64,000 nt of DNA from the NCBI GenBank assembly GCA_029262065.1, contig JAJDAC010000033.1:21231-85230 (forward strand). The letters are read 5' to 3'. Below the pieces are notes generated by a model. It was not told where the DNA came from. It was given only the letters and a program-made list of their open reading frames with translations, and did no database searches. The translations under genes were made by a program, and so were the position numbers. The DNA is from Candidatus Krumholzibacteriota bacterium. Its GTDB lineage: Bacteria; Krumholzibacteriota; Krumholzibacteriia; JAJRXK01. Below, one piece after another: positions 11,865 to 15,524 of the stretch; within the stretch, counting starts at the first letter, position 1; the number at the start of each line of letters is the position of its first letter.

Positions 11865-12416
11865 CTAGATACCGCGGTCGCTTCGCCGCTGCATCTCCCA
11901 CCGATCGATGGGCGCAAGCGGGCCGACCGGGCAATGGTGTTCCACCGACGGTCTGCCCTGGATCATGCTGAGAAGGTGAGGGACGGCGCGCATCTCGCAG
12001 CCGGGCGTCGCGAGCACCGCCGCCAGCACGAACGATAGCGTCAAGTGCGCGAACTCGTACGTGAGCCAGGCCCAAACGATCCAGTTCAGCGGTGACGACC
12101 AGACGGTTCCGTTCATCGTGTAGCTGATCGAACCGCCAACTGCCGCCGCCAAAAGCACTCCGACCTGTGGCCACCGCCCCCAGTTGCGGGAGAACCCGAT
12201 GTTCAGAACGTAGGGAAACAGAAAGAACCCAGCGAAAACGGTGAAGGCCCACTCCGACTGGGTCCAGGGCTCGCCATTGCGAAAGTACCGACCATCCACA
12301 ATCAAAGCCCAGGTACCTGAGAAGAACACCGCGGCGAGTAATAGACGGGCAACCCGGCCGACAGGACCGGGACGTTCGATTGTGCCCTCGGGGGCCAGCT
12401 GGAGTTCCGCGCTCAT
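11865..12416 (-). CDS. Hypothetical membrane protein, last gene of the mer-like operon
   Basis: 183 aa with about four hydrophobic helices: VARLLLAAVFFSGTWALIV, WAFTVFAGFFLFPYVLNIG, VGVLLAAAVGGSISY and IVWAWLTYEFAHLTLSF. The C-terminal tail is probably cytoplasmic and contains Cys residues (TPGCEMR, EHHCPVG) and histidines that could bind metal. The start ATG 12416 lies 10 bases after the redoxin stop, implying cotranscription with it. No family recognised. Its place in the operon suggests a role in metal transport or redox at the membrane, which is inference only. Confidence 0.65.
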   Translation of the reverse strand: MSAELQLAPEGTIERPGPVGRVARLLLAAVFFSGTWALIVDGRYFRNGEPWTQSEWAFTVFAGFFLFPYVLNIGFSRNWGRWPQVGVLLAAAVGGSISYTMNGTVWSSPLNWIVWAWLTYEFAHLTLSFVLAAVLATPGCEMRAVPHLLSMIQGRPSVEHHCPVGPLAPIDRWEMQRRSDRGI

Positions 12417-12426
12417 GGCTGCGCCA

Positions 12427-13164
12427 TCAACGCCCGGCTGACTGGCCCGTCGACACTGACTGTGCGAAGTGACTCGTCATACTTGCGACCACATGGTCCT
12501 TGCTCTGGTAACCAACAAGTCGTTGCTTCACGCTGCCCTCCGCGTCCACAAGCCAATAGGTGGGCACCAGGCGGCTATCGAATGTTTCGCCGAGCCCGTC
12601 GTCTGGCGAAGCCAGGACCGCATAATTGGGCTCGTACGCCTTCATGAACGAAGCCACACTCTCCGCGTCACCCGAGTTCACGAACACCCCCACCACCTGT
12701 ACACCTTGCTCCGCGTACTCCGTTTCAAGTTCCTTCAGAATTGGCAGCGTCTGAAAAGAATGTGAGCAGTGGCCAGCCAAGGTCACGAGGACCGTAGGCT
12801 TACCGACCAGGTCAGCGGAAGACACTTCACTACCGTCCATCGCGTATGCAGTGAACTCCGGAAGCGAGAGGTCCGCGTACGTTTCACCATCGCGGGCCTT
12901 TTCCTTGACGTACAAATCGAGCATGTCGCCGGTAGCACCCGAAAGGTCACCGTACAGGGAGCAGGCGCCATACTCGGCGCAACGGCTCAGGGATGCCGTA
13001 GATGGAGTTACACAGGCGCTGGTGGATGTGACTGCGCAGGCACTGGGTTCTGCGGCCACATCCTTTTCTGAGGAGTTCTTCTCGGCCGTTGCGATGCCCG
13101 TGCACAGTACGACCAGGGCCAACACGGCCGAGAGCTTCGCAATGCGAAATGTGAATTGTTCCAT
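12427..13164 (-). CDS. Exported redoxin (AhpC/TSA-thioredoxin fold) with CxxS active site
   Basis: 245 aa exported protein. ATG 13164 follows AAGGAG at nine bases and opens a signal peptide (FRIAKLSAVLALVVLCTGIATA). A Cys-rich linker (SACAVTSTSACVTP, SRCAEYGACS) precedes a redoxin domain: strand KPTVLVTLAGHCSHS, the cis-Pro segment LVPTYWLVDAEG, and VVGVFVNSGD. The usual W-C-x-x-C is replaced by Gly-His-Cys133-Ser-His-Ser136, so the resolving cysteine is missing. It might act as a one-cysteine isomerase or reductase, or use a linker cysteine. It lies 67 bases downstream of the candidate selenoprotein gene, in the same orientation. Confidence 0.8.
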   Translation of the reverse strand: MEQFTFRIAKLSAVLALVVLCTGIATAEKNSSEKDVAAEPSACAVTSTSACVTPSTASLSRCAEYGACSLYGDLSGATGDMLDLYVKEKARDGETYADLSLPEFTAYAMDGSEVSSADLVGKPTVLVTLAGHCSHSFQTLPILKELETEYAEQGVQVVGVFVNSGDAESVASFMKAYEPNYAVLASPDDGLGETFDSRLVPTYWLVDAEGSVKQRLVGYQSKDHVVASMTSHFAQSVSTGQSAGR

Positions 13165-13231: not shown

Positions 13232-14701
13232 TCACCGTGTTTCTTCGTCGAGGTGCGTTCGTATCTGTTTGGCGAGTTCCGTAGCGTCCAGCCGGTTCTC
13301 TGCGGGAAGCCTGCCGCTGAGCTGGTGCATGAAGTAATTTGGCCGCGGCGGCCCGGCATCGTCCCAGGTAACGCCGGGCGCATACACCAGGTACACGTCC
13401 CAGGCCGGTTCAGTCTTTAGATCGATCGACGGCTGGAACAGTTCTCCCACCGAACGCGTGTCGACCCAGTAGTTGGAAACTCGTTCGTCGGGAAAAAGAA
13501 TCGTCGCCTTGCGGGACGACCGCTCGTCGTCGGTCTTCAAGATGGGCTCCCACACCGCATACACCGACAGGGTCGTGTCGTCGATCTGCTCCAGGGTCTT
13601 GGACTGCACCTCACGGGCGCCGTACTGACACCCGGGTCAGGTGGGAGACAGCAGCATCAGCAGACGGGTCTTGTCGACATCGGCGTTGAAGCGCGCGCGT
13701 AACTCCGCCGCATCGTCTGATAGTCTTTCGACGAGGGAGGCATTTTCGGCGGCCGTTTCCAGTTCCAGGAATCCCTCCGAGAACACGGCCTCACCGGTCT
13801 TGCGAAATATGAAGACCTCATTTTCCTCACCGACACTGCCCAGACCTTCCAGCGTCAGTCCGTCCGGAGACAGTGCACCCTCGAACTTGGTTCCCATGGC
13901 CGTCAGGAAAAGCTGGATGTTGGGTTCCAGGCCAGACACTTCCACGGGATAGTCCTCGACCCCATACCTGGGAAGATCGAACTCCCCCACCCAGCGGGAA
14001 TCGACTACACCGAGATCCATGATGATCTCGATCATCTCCCCGTCTTCGTCTTCGATTTCCGCGACCCAATGACCGGAAAGCTTGTTGCCATCCTGACTCG
14101 CCGGCGACTCGGCCACCGACTTCAGCTCGTATCCCGCCTTACCCACCGCCGCGGCGAGCGCCATTTGGGTGGGGACGGCGCCGGCGCCGAGTTCCACAAC
14201 CCCCTGCCGGTTCTCGTAGCTGACAGTGGCCGAAGTGACTTCAGCAAGTTCCAACAAGGCCATCTCGACCGCGGCCTCGCATCCCGCGCACGTCATGCCC
14301 TCGATATCCAAAACCAGTGTCTTGGATCGCGCGGAATCGGACGGCGCGGCTTGCGCGCCAACGACACGCCCTACGTAGCTTGGAAAGAGCGTGAGCGCCG
14401 CGACCAATGCCGTCGATGTCCAAAGCATCCCCAGGTTCAAGCGCCGGAGTCGTGAGTTGGAGGGTAGACACTCACCGTCGGGCCCGCACTCAAACCTCGA
14501 TGGGCGGTAGTTCAGGTAGAAACCAATGCCGAGCAACGCGACCGACACAACCAGGAATAGCGGACGGAACCGCTCGAAGAACGCCGAAGCTCCGGCCACT
14601 GAAAATCCCGCGGCAATCATGAGGAGCGGCAACCAGCAGCACGCGGAAGACGCAGCCGCGGATACAACGGAACCCATGGTCGCCCAGCCCGCGCGTTTCA
14701 T
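13232..14701 (-). CDS. MerT-HMA-thioredoxin fusion, candidate selenoprotein (Sec355)
   Basis: Reading through one in-frame TGA (13637-13639), this is a 489 aa protein. Residues 1-120 resemble MerT: three membrane helices, a vicinal Cys pair in helix 1 (Cys21-Cys22) and a C-x5-C pair (FECGPDGEC) in the loop before helix 3, the Tn501 MerT cysteine layout. Residues about 127-195 are an HMA/MerP domain (GMTCAGC). About 205-325 is a beta-rich domain of unknown role. About 335-489 is a thioredoxin-like domain whose redox motif reads Ser-Pro-Thr-Sec355-Pro-Gly-Cys358. Coding potential and family-like sequence continue after the TGA (SVYAVWEPIL, WDVYLVY, PRPNYFMHQLSGRL). With the N-terminus inside, the HMA and redox domains would be periplasmic. 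ATG 14701 overlaps the upstream stop (ATGA). The alternative is a nonsense mutation or an unrelated second start at 13609. Confidence 0.75.
13613..13639 (-). promoter_or_regulatory. Candidate bacterial SECIS at the in-frame TGA
   Basis: Immediately 3' of the TGA the transcript can fold in two ways. One is an 8-bp stem (13634-13627 with 13621-13614) capped by loop AGTAC. The other is a shorter stem ACGG/CCGT (13623-13620 with 13616-13613) capped by CGC, 17 nt after the TGA, with G as the second loop base. The second fits the usual bacterial SECIS spacing of 16-37 nt and the G-in-loop rule, though the stem is short. This was folded by eye only. Confidence 0.45.
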
Positions 14702-15003
14702 GGCGTACCGCTCGCGGTCAGTGCGGCCAGAACCAACTCCCGCGACGGAACCCCGGAGTTGCCGTAGCGGCGACAACTCATGGCGTAGTTCTCATCTTCA
14801 CGACGTGCGAGTTCGATGTCTTCGCCGTCCACCCGTATCGTCGGCGAACCCAGAAATGCCAGGCGACCAACGTCGTTCACGTGCTTGATTTCGACCTCGG
14901 TCAGAATCGCTTCGACGCCCGTTTCTGCAACTACTTCGCGCACGAGTTCGAGCGCGGGTGCATGGTTGGGGCAACCATTGAAATACAGAATGTCGATTCT
15001 CAT
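14698..15003 (-). CDS. Small thioredoxin-fold protein (CPNH motif)
   Basis: 101 aa cytoplasmic protein. ATG 15003 has AAGGAGG upstream. The sequence is a minimal thioredoxin fold: first strand IDILYFNGC11PNH, helix APALELVREVVAETGV, second strand AILTEVEI, then LGSPTIRVDGEDIE with the cis-proline, and a Cys-bearing end (YAMSCRRYGNSGVPSRELV). Family members commonly sit next to merR and mercury-related genes. The motif is C-P-N-H rather than CxxC, so metal or thiolate binding is as likely as disulfide exchange. Its stop overlaps the start of the MerT-like fusion (ATGA), implying translational coupling. Confidence 0.8.
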   Translation of the reverse strand: MRIDILYFNGCPNHAPALELVREVVAETGVEAILTEVEIKHVNDVGRLAFLGSPTIRVDGEDIELARREDENYAMSCRRYGNSGVPSRELVLAALTASGTP

Positions 15004-15038: not shown

Positions 15039-15060
15039 TTGGACCCTGGTTCAGGGTCAA
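15039..15060 (-). promoter_or_regulatory. MerR-type operator dyad between merR and the downstream genes
   Basis: Perfect dyad GACCCTG-N3-CAGGGTC (15042-15058), read on the minus strand as TTGACC (-35-like) followed by the dyad, placed as in MerR-controlled promoters. It overlaps the merR stop codon and precedes the CPNH gene. No clear -10 is visible at the 19-20 base spacing. It resembles the dyad upstream of merR (TTGAACC versus TTGACCC). Confidence 0.5.
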
Positions 15061-15485
15061 GACTCGATTTTCGGCGACGGAAGATCTCGCCTGAACTCTT
15101 CGATGGCCGGGCACTGGCCTTGTTGGTGGGGGCTACAGCAGGCCTCGTGGAGTCTTTGCAGGGTCCGTTGAACCGCGCGCAGGTCGGCAAGCTGCTGCCC
15201 GACGTGCTCAAGCCTGGAATCGATGACAGAGAGGACTTGTTCGCAGGGCGCAACCGCCCCATCGGCAAACCGCAGGACGGTGGCGATATCTTCCAGCGAG
15301 AGCCCGCTCGATTGCGCGGCGCGGATGAAGCGCAGGCGAGATACTGAATTCGGCCCATACACACGGTAGTTGGCCGAACTCCGACCTTCGGGGCGAAGTA
15401 GCCCCCGGCGCTCGTAGTACCTTACGGTCGAGCCCGCGACGCCAACTTGCTTGGCGAGTTCACCTATGGTCAATGGCTTGTTCAT
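15057..15485 (-). CDS. merR: MerR-family Hg(II)-responsive regulator
   Basis: 142 aa (Tn501 MerR is 144). N-terminal MerR winged helix (LTIGELAKQVGVAGSTVRYYERRGLL, NYRVYG), dimerisation helix, and the metal-binding cysteines Cys81, Cys116 and Cys125. The spacings (35 and 9) equal those of MerR Cys82/Cys117/Cys126, which bind Hg(II) in a trigonal site; an extra Cys117 is adjacent to Cys116. This is better support for mercury than for copper, zinc or lead sensors, which use different spacings. ATG 15485 has no Shine-Dalgarno and sits only about 10 bases after a -10-like TATCAT, so the message may be leaderless. It heads the minus-strand operon. Confidence 0.88.
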   Translation of the reverse strand: MNKPLTIGELAKQVGVAGSTVRYYERRGLLRPEGRSSANYRVYGPNSVSRLRFIRAAQSSGLSLEDIATVLRFADGAVAPCEQVLSVIDSRLEHVGQQLADLRAVQRTLQRLHEACCSPHQQGQCPAIEEFRRDLPSPKIES

Positions 15486-15494
15486 TGTACTCAT

Positions 15495-15524
15495 ATGATA
15501 CCTACGCATTGAACCTGGGTTCAA
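15495..15524 (-). promoter_or_regulatory. merR promoter with operator dyad
   Basis: On the minus strand TTGAAC (15524-15519) and TATCAT (15500-15495) are 18 bases apart. The -35 box lies in a perfect inverted repeat TTGAACC-N2-GGTTCAA (15509-15524). This is the organisation expected for an autoregulated MerR promoter. Confidence 0.55.

Follow-up and report, generated by a model that had tools for sequence, protein, structure and literature searches.

Introduction

Selenocysteine (Sec) has already been reported in bacterial proteins of mercury transport. Excerpts of three papers (PMC13188914, PMC9312934, PMC2398784) list Sec-containing MerT-family and MerP proteins, and in the first two these include a putative mercuric transport selenoprotein (ABB16073.1) of family PF02411 with a C/SxxU motif. 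Here we analyse a gene on the minus strand of a 64,000-nucleotide stretch of DNA from a Candidatus Krumholzibacteriota bacterium (assembly GCA_029262065.1, contig JAJDAC010000033.1, positions 21,231 to 85,230), which will be referred to as the window. The gene encodes a MerT-like and heavy-metal-associated (HMA) transporter, and an in-frame TGA at codon 355, which is almost certainly read as Sec, places a UxxC motif in a C-terminal domain with a predicted thioredoxin fold. A first-pass annotation, made from the nucleotide sequence, had pointed to this TGA and knew of no well-described MerT-MerP-thioredoxin selenoprotein; with regard to MerT-MerP selenoproteins that statement has to be amended in view of the PF02411 C/SxxU protein listed in reviews and of the NCBIfam model NF045683. 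As Sec-containing MerT and HMA proteins are already known, the new part is the UxxC motif on a separate thioredoxin-fold domain.

The window protein resembles the "MerT/CopZ fusion-like heavy metal transport selenoprotein" of NF045683 in being a MerT-family protein with a predicted Sec, but scores only 58 bits against a cut-off of 375. It differs from the PF02411 C/SxxU selenoprotein, for which ABB16073.1 was compared by description only, in carrying Sec as UxxC in a separate C-terminal thioredoxin-fold domain and in possessing an additional beta-barrel. With the MerTP fusion (NF033556; 90.2 bits, cut-off 180) it shares a mercuric transporter joined to a MerP-like domain, whereas two further domains and Sec are found only in the window protein.

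On the thioredoxin side, the excerpt of PMC13188914 lists SaoT with UxxC, a UGC-containing TlpA-like protein and a thiol-disulfide isomerase-like protein with UxxC. They too are thioredoxin-like proteins with Sec, in most cases within a UxxC motif, but no NCBIfam model matches the window domain. The predicted fold of the window domain is similar to that of DsbE/DsbF, ResA and CcmG; the domain differs from them by the lack of a Pfam redoxin or thioredoxin match, by hallmarks of its own and by Sec at the first position of the motif. Searches of a collection of open-access papers, in which subscription papers are mostly missing, turned up no description of MerT joined to a thioredoxin-like domain with UxxC, and a term search of the main texts of PMC12013277 and PMC5029168 gave no mention of MerT or mercury.

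Reading of the TGA Codon

The features concerned are as follows.
13232..14701, minus strand: whole read-through gene, 489 codons, codon 355 being TGA, with the terminal stop TGA at 13232-13234
13637..13639, minus strand: in-frame TGA, the predicted Sec codon of residue 355 (TGA in 12 loci, Cys in 57 proteins)
13628..13639, minus strand: U-P-G-C active-site motif, residues 355-358

The frame starts with ATG at 14701, reaches the in-frame TGA after 354 codons, continues for 134 open codons and ends at 13232-13234. The 354-codon frame with MerT-like and HMA domains described in the first-pass annotation is borne out by Pfam (MerT 34.2 bits, HMA 47.1 bits), and the codons around the TGA indeed read S-P-T-(TGA)-P-G-C-Q-Y-G-A-R. 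The open continuation was likewise found; its end had been given as TAG/TGA, but the terminal stop is TGA and no TAG is involved. GC contents by codon position are similar on both sides of the internal TGA (0.64/0.47/0.72 and 0.63/0.44/0.77). At the local composition, 133 consecutive codons would stay open by chance with P ~0.013, so that the open frame by itself is weak evidence and the argument must rest on relatives.

Two protein searches yielded 116 proteins besides the query (P0001), which was left out of the protein counts. Continuous-frame homologues with Cys at this position had been named beforehand as the support to look for, and 57 of the 116 relatives carry such an in-frame Cys at codon 355, where it opens the CxxC of an SPTCxxC-type motif. 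A further 58, including the window's own P0003, end exactly at the residue before the site; these are protein records, and the kind of stop codon was read for the window's own only. The remaining protein, P0114, starts beyond the site. One Cys form (P0002) is a twin having all four parts of the window protein, with 60% identity in the alignment and a MerT part that is called short at the N-terminus. By source annotation, 12 of the 58 ending proteins are named CopZ and 3 mercuric ion transport protein.

At the DNA level, a profile of the C-terminal domain (A3) was run on 80 genomes of the window's phylum and on 47 genomes from the phylum to which locus L059 belongs, yielding 5 matches in 4 genomes and 12 matches in 11 genomes, respectively; locus L068, a duplicate of L059, was dropped before counting. 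The codon was TGA in 12 of the 17 matches (11 genomes, both phylum sets) and Cys in 4 (G001, G002, G081 and G082), and one match (G073) had no CxxC. Besides the window, the TGA loci are found in G001, G080, G104, G105, G111, G113 (two loci), G114, G118, G121 and G126. A sequencing or assembly error turning TGT or TGC into TGA, which had been named as a possible refutation, is excluded in practice, since 12 loci from 11 genomes share TGA at this codon, and its probability is negligible.

The substitutions are those of coding sequence on either side of the TGA. All 15 pairwise comparisons among 6 of the 12 loci gave a lower proportion of nonsynonymous differences (pN) than of synonymous differences (pS), both for the 50 codons preceding the TGA, to which the upstream portion was confined, and for the part after it, several pS values being saturated and the gap being small for a few distant pairs. 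Because relatives either stop at the same codon or have Cys there, and because pN is lower than pS, the open frame goes beyond chance: a fortuitous open frame, which P ~0.013 was insufficient to dismiss, is ruled out by homology.

Alternatively, the TGA might be a true stop, in which case a MerT-HMA-barrel protein of 354 residues would be made and a second protein of 125 residues would have a start of its own. Gene callers predict just such a pair, and in the window a GTG begins 28 bases past the TGA. A third search with the downstream 125-residue open reading frame (ORF) as query found 121 homologues, of which 120 were listed, and in 92 of these 120 the called start precedes the AVW-type motif by either 17 or 18 residues; owing to this clustering, the starts alone are no argument against reinitiation. 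In at least 8 of the 120, however, the called start falls at or past the VYAVW strand. Such a split would furthermore cut one predicted domain and remove its CxxC, 57 relatives are continuous, and all 12 genes have TGA as their internal codon whereas only 7 of them end in TGA (4 in TAG, 1 in TAA). Taken together, we regard a true stop as very improbable. The motif [SA]P[TSA]CxxC was found in none of the 120 listed homologues of the downstream ORF, a search limited to lengths of about 69-218 residues, in which longer continuous relatives could not appear. For 22 of the 58 ending proteins, the window's own included, the size of the longest contig matches that of a listed downstream piece exactly, which points to upstream and downstream pairs on one contig, although short lengths could agree by chance.

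In a tree of the domain with 61 Sec-type and 61 Cys-type rows, 7 label changes were counted, at least 4 of them forced by well-supported branches, suggesting that Sec and Cys have been exchanged repeatedly. This estimate of at least 4 changes is limited by the size of the tree, with few columns and some long branches, and by the labels, as the 119 downstream fragments (P0119-P0237) are represented by 49 and Sec was inferred for 49 of the 61 Sec rows. G001 holds both a TGA form and a distant Cys form of the domain (L065, G001:C80, and L030, G001:C145). The loci L071, L072, L073, L074 and L076 are more distant relatives that also have TGA at this codon, some of whose N-termini resemble signal sequences; tblastn detected no MerT or HMA part in them, L071 lying at a contig end. 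The plasmid search and PHROGs gave no match, and of 10 viral contigs matched by the DNA pattern, none had a tblastn match to the protein.

Selenocysteine Machinery and SECIS Candidate

The genome of the window (95.6% complete) contains the Sec genes for which a check had been suggested: tRNA-Sec scored 71.6 bits and was read by ARAGORN as SeC with a TCA anticodon, and selA (467.8 bits), selB (354.1 bits) and selD (336.2 bits) were all above cut-off. Its selD (L018/L090, G000:C48:88900-89832) has an in-frame TGA of its own near the start, following SAAG, as in Sec-type SelD, and is a probable selenoprotein gene. Among the 11 genomes with TGA loci, selA was above cut-off in 10 (the tRNA-Sec search did not take in G001), and the best tRNA-Sec match of G104 is marginal (47.9 bits, cut-off 47). 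As selA was found above cut-off in 77 of the 80 genomes of the window's phylum, in which Sec use is almost universal, and in 40 of the 47 genomes of the second set, the machinery is consistent with Sec but not discriminating, and co-occurrence with selA was discarded as a test.

A candidate for a selenocysteine insertion sequence (SECIS) was found directly 3′ of the TGA.
13614..13634, minus strand: hairpin, weak SECIS candidate, predicted to fold into an 8-bp stem with the loop AGUAC

Some of these data weigh against the reading as Sec. G080 carries a TGA locus but no selA above cut-off, though its tRNA-Sec scores 66.8 bits. In comparison with synonymous recodings, the window hairpin reached z values of -1.6 to -2.3 depending on length, and averaged over 10 of the 12 loci with TGA (L073 and L074 left out) z was only -0.6 to -0.9; dinucleotide shuffles of the window hairpin gave z = -0.59. 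Mononucleotide shuffles ranged from -1.25 to 1.21 over the 10 loci. The support from SECIS is thus weak.

Domain Architecture

The full chain consists of a MerT part with three helices, a MerP-like HMA domain, a predicted beta-barrel and a domain predicted to adopt a thioredoxin fold.
14384..14686, minus strand: MerT-like domain, residues 6-106, three helices (PF02411, 34.2 bits, cut-off 32.9)
14126..14314, minus strand: HMA (MerP-like) domain, residues 130-192, with GMTC(138)AGC(141) (PF00403, 47.1 bits, cut-off 24.8)
13793..14074, minus strand: beta-barrel domain, residues ~210-303 (AlphaFold2 prediction)
13235..13777, minus strand: thioredoxin-fold domain carrying UxxC, residues ~309-489 (AlphaFold2 prediction, pLDDT 92.2)

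The MerT part contains the paired Cys21-Cys22 in its first helix as well as Cys72/Cys78, and the HMA domain is also CopZ-like. The thioredoxin-fold domain was modelled with Cys in place of Sec, and Foldseek matched the model to 1lu4, 2b5x, ResA and CcmG, with GPX8 also among the matches; VIA matches too. In the model, the first core helix begins with UxxC or CxxC, in line with the thioredoxin context assumed in the first-pass annotation. Family hallmarks of the Sec/Cys domain are SPT[C/U]xxC, AWDVY and HQL. Of 177 family rows, 175 have a W-D pair immediately ahead of the third strand, a placement derived from predicted strands and not from a residue alignment; Ala precedes W-D in 173 of the 175, and Pro occurs within two residues before it in 129 of the 175.

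In precomputed Pfam lists, some Cys forms carry HMA, some MerT and some the two together. When Cys relatives were rescored for MerT (cut-off 32.9), P0096 passed with 37.8 bits, and P0063 (32.8), P0054 (32.5) and P0002 (28.8) remained below. P0057 had been considered as a CcdA-type fusion and was dropped, as Pfam finds no family in it. In the TGA locus of G104 (L080), the ORF ending at TGA seems to have its MerT part reduced to the first helix, and the N-terminus now resembles a lipoprotein signal (LLASACWIGSLLLGAIGLGC), ahead of the barrel and the Sec domain.

Proposed Function

We propose, with a probability of roughly 0.6, that the thioredoxin domain with UxxC (or CxxC) keeps the metal-binding cysteines of its own chain reduced during uptake of mercury or a similar soft metal. 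The helices of MerT would place the C-terminus outside the cytoplasm, and the Arg-rich second loop of the window protein agrees with this topology. With the C-terminus outside, the HMA and thioredoxin domains would be exposed to oxidising surroundings, in which Cys138/141 and Cys21/22 would form disulfides unless kept reduced. Such a disulfide, or else an Hg-thiolate, may be the point of attack for Sec355, with Cys358 resolving the resulting bond; the targets would be Cys138/141 and perhaps Cys21/22. The adjacent redoxin (12427-13164) is a candidate electron donor.

The selenol might instead belong to a metal relay, in which inserted Sec and Cys358 capture Hg(II) (or methylmercury, Cd or Cu) and pass it to HMA and then to MerT. 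The presence of the thioredoxin domain in one chain with HMA and MerT agrees with a relay, as does the second locus of G113, in which the domain lies next to a DF-MerC fusion (see below). The W-D pair of 175 of 177 rows, placed by predicted strands, stands where thioredoxins usually have their cis-proline, which according to an excerpt of PMC2757866 may prevent metal binding. On the other hand, the fold resembles the DsbE/ResA/CcmG oxidoreductases, and the very tight Se-Hg bond would make a trap rather than a relay. We consider the relay rather unlikely. A reductase acting on cysteines of its own chain is rated somewhat higher than direct binding of Hg by the selenol. As to the main role, the odds between reduction and metal binding are about even. 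The proposed function and its alternatives overlap in part, and their confidences do not sum to one.

Neighbouring Genes and the Metal

The gene lies in a run on the minus strand, with MerR and DF genes upstream and a redoxin and a 183-residue protein downstream.
15057..15524, minus strand: MerR-family regulator, in which three Cys have Cys counterparts in the mercuric regulator of known structure 5crl by alignment
14698..15003, minus strand: Cys form of a DF family (seleno)protein (NGCPNH; NF049942, 105.1 bits, cut-off 70)
12427..13164, minus strand: redoxin/ResA-like protein with a single Cys in the active-site region (GHCSHS; PF08534, 61.6 bits)
11865..12416, minus strand: protein of 183 aa, membrane-like by eye, closing the run, unmatched in Pfam and NCBIfam

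The DF gene and the transporter gene overlap in an ATGA, which holds the stop of the former and the start of the latter. G113 and G111 also have DF genes as neighbours, and at L059 a MerR gene directly precedes the gene. The redoxin has a Cys-rich N-terminal stretch and the single-Cys motif GHCSHS at the position where ResA has CxxC. A designation of the 183-residue protein as MauE-like was given up, as no Pfam or NCBIfam model supports it. The second locus of G113 (L088; 1692-2474, 1234-1611) contains a DF-MerC fusion between MerR and a TGA-type thioredoxin domain, with MerC above cut-off (PF03203, 29.3 bits); this is a second mercury-type transporter tied to the same thioredoxin-domain family.

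The metal is probably mercury, judging from domains and neighbours. The mercury link drawn in the first-pass annotation is supported by these, and its selenol binding Hg(II) is placed somewhat below the reductase role. Alternatively, MerT and HMA might move Cu, Zn, Cd or Pb, with the Sec domain repairing thiols or peroxides of the envelope. Such a client would fit the ambiguity of the window's MerR among Zn, Hg and Cd/Pb models, the many Cys relatives without MerT or HMA in the precomputed Pfam lists, the CopZ-like character of the HMA domain, the GPX8 fold match and the lack of a MerA above cut-off. It is at odds with the fusion to MerT in the window and, above cut-off, in the Cys relative P0096, with MerC at another TGA locus and with the three Cys that the window's MerR keeps in alignment with 5crl, which presumably are the Hg ligands. 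A metal other than mercury is quite conceivable, though not the reading we favour.

Several observations speak against reduction of mercury-binding cysteines as the function. MerA above cut-off is absent from the window's genome (95.6% complete), the best score being 358.3 bits against 454.45; the candidates were four paralogues of FAD-disulfide reductases, all of which were rejected. The MerR of the window scores 107 bits with the MerR model and 110 bits with a Zn regulator model, both below cut-off. The thioredoxin-fold domain matches no thioredoxin or redoxin family of Pfam and no NCBIfam model, and profile comparison by hhalign gave no relationship between the domain and the neighbouring redoxin (E 0.12).

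Implications

A broader picture, which we regard as rather doubtful, would be that of a widespread family of which this is the first described member: a selenol-armed envelope thioredoxin built into a mercury transporter, by which bacteria without MerA might strip, carry or release surface Hg(II) through the affinity of Se, with several exchanges between Sec and Cys. Through this finding the predicted selenoproteome gains a thioredoxin-fold family that has no name as yet, and a set of database proteins is probably cut short, and hence misannotated, at the Sec codon. The finding also makes testable the question of selenium in bacterial mercury handling inside a dedicated transporter, for which the Cys forms would provide natural controls.
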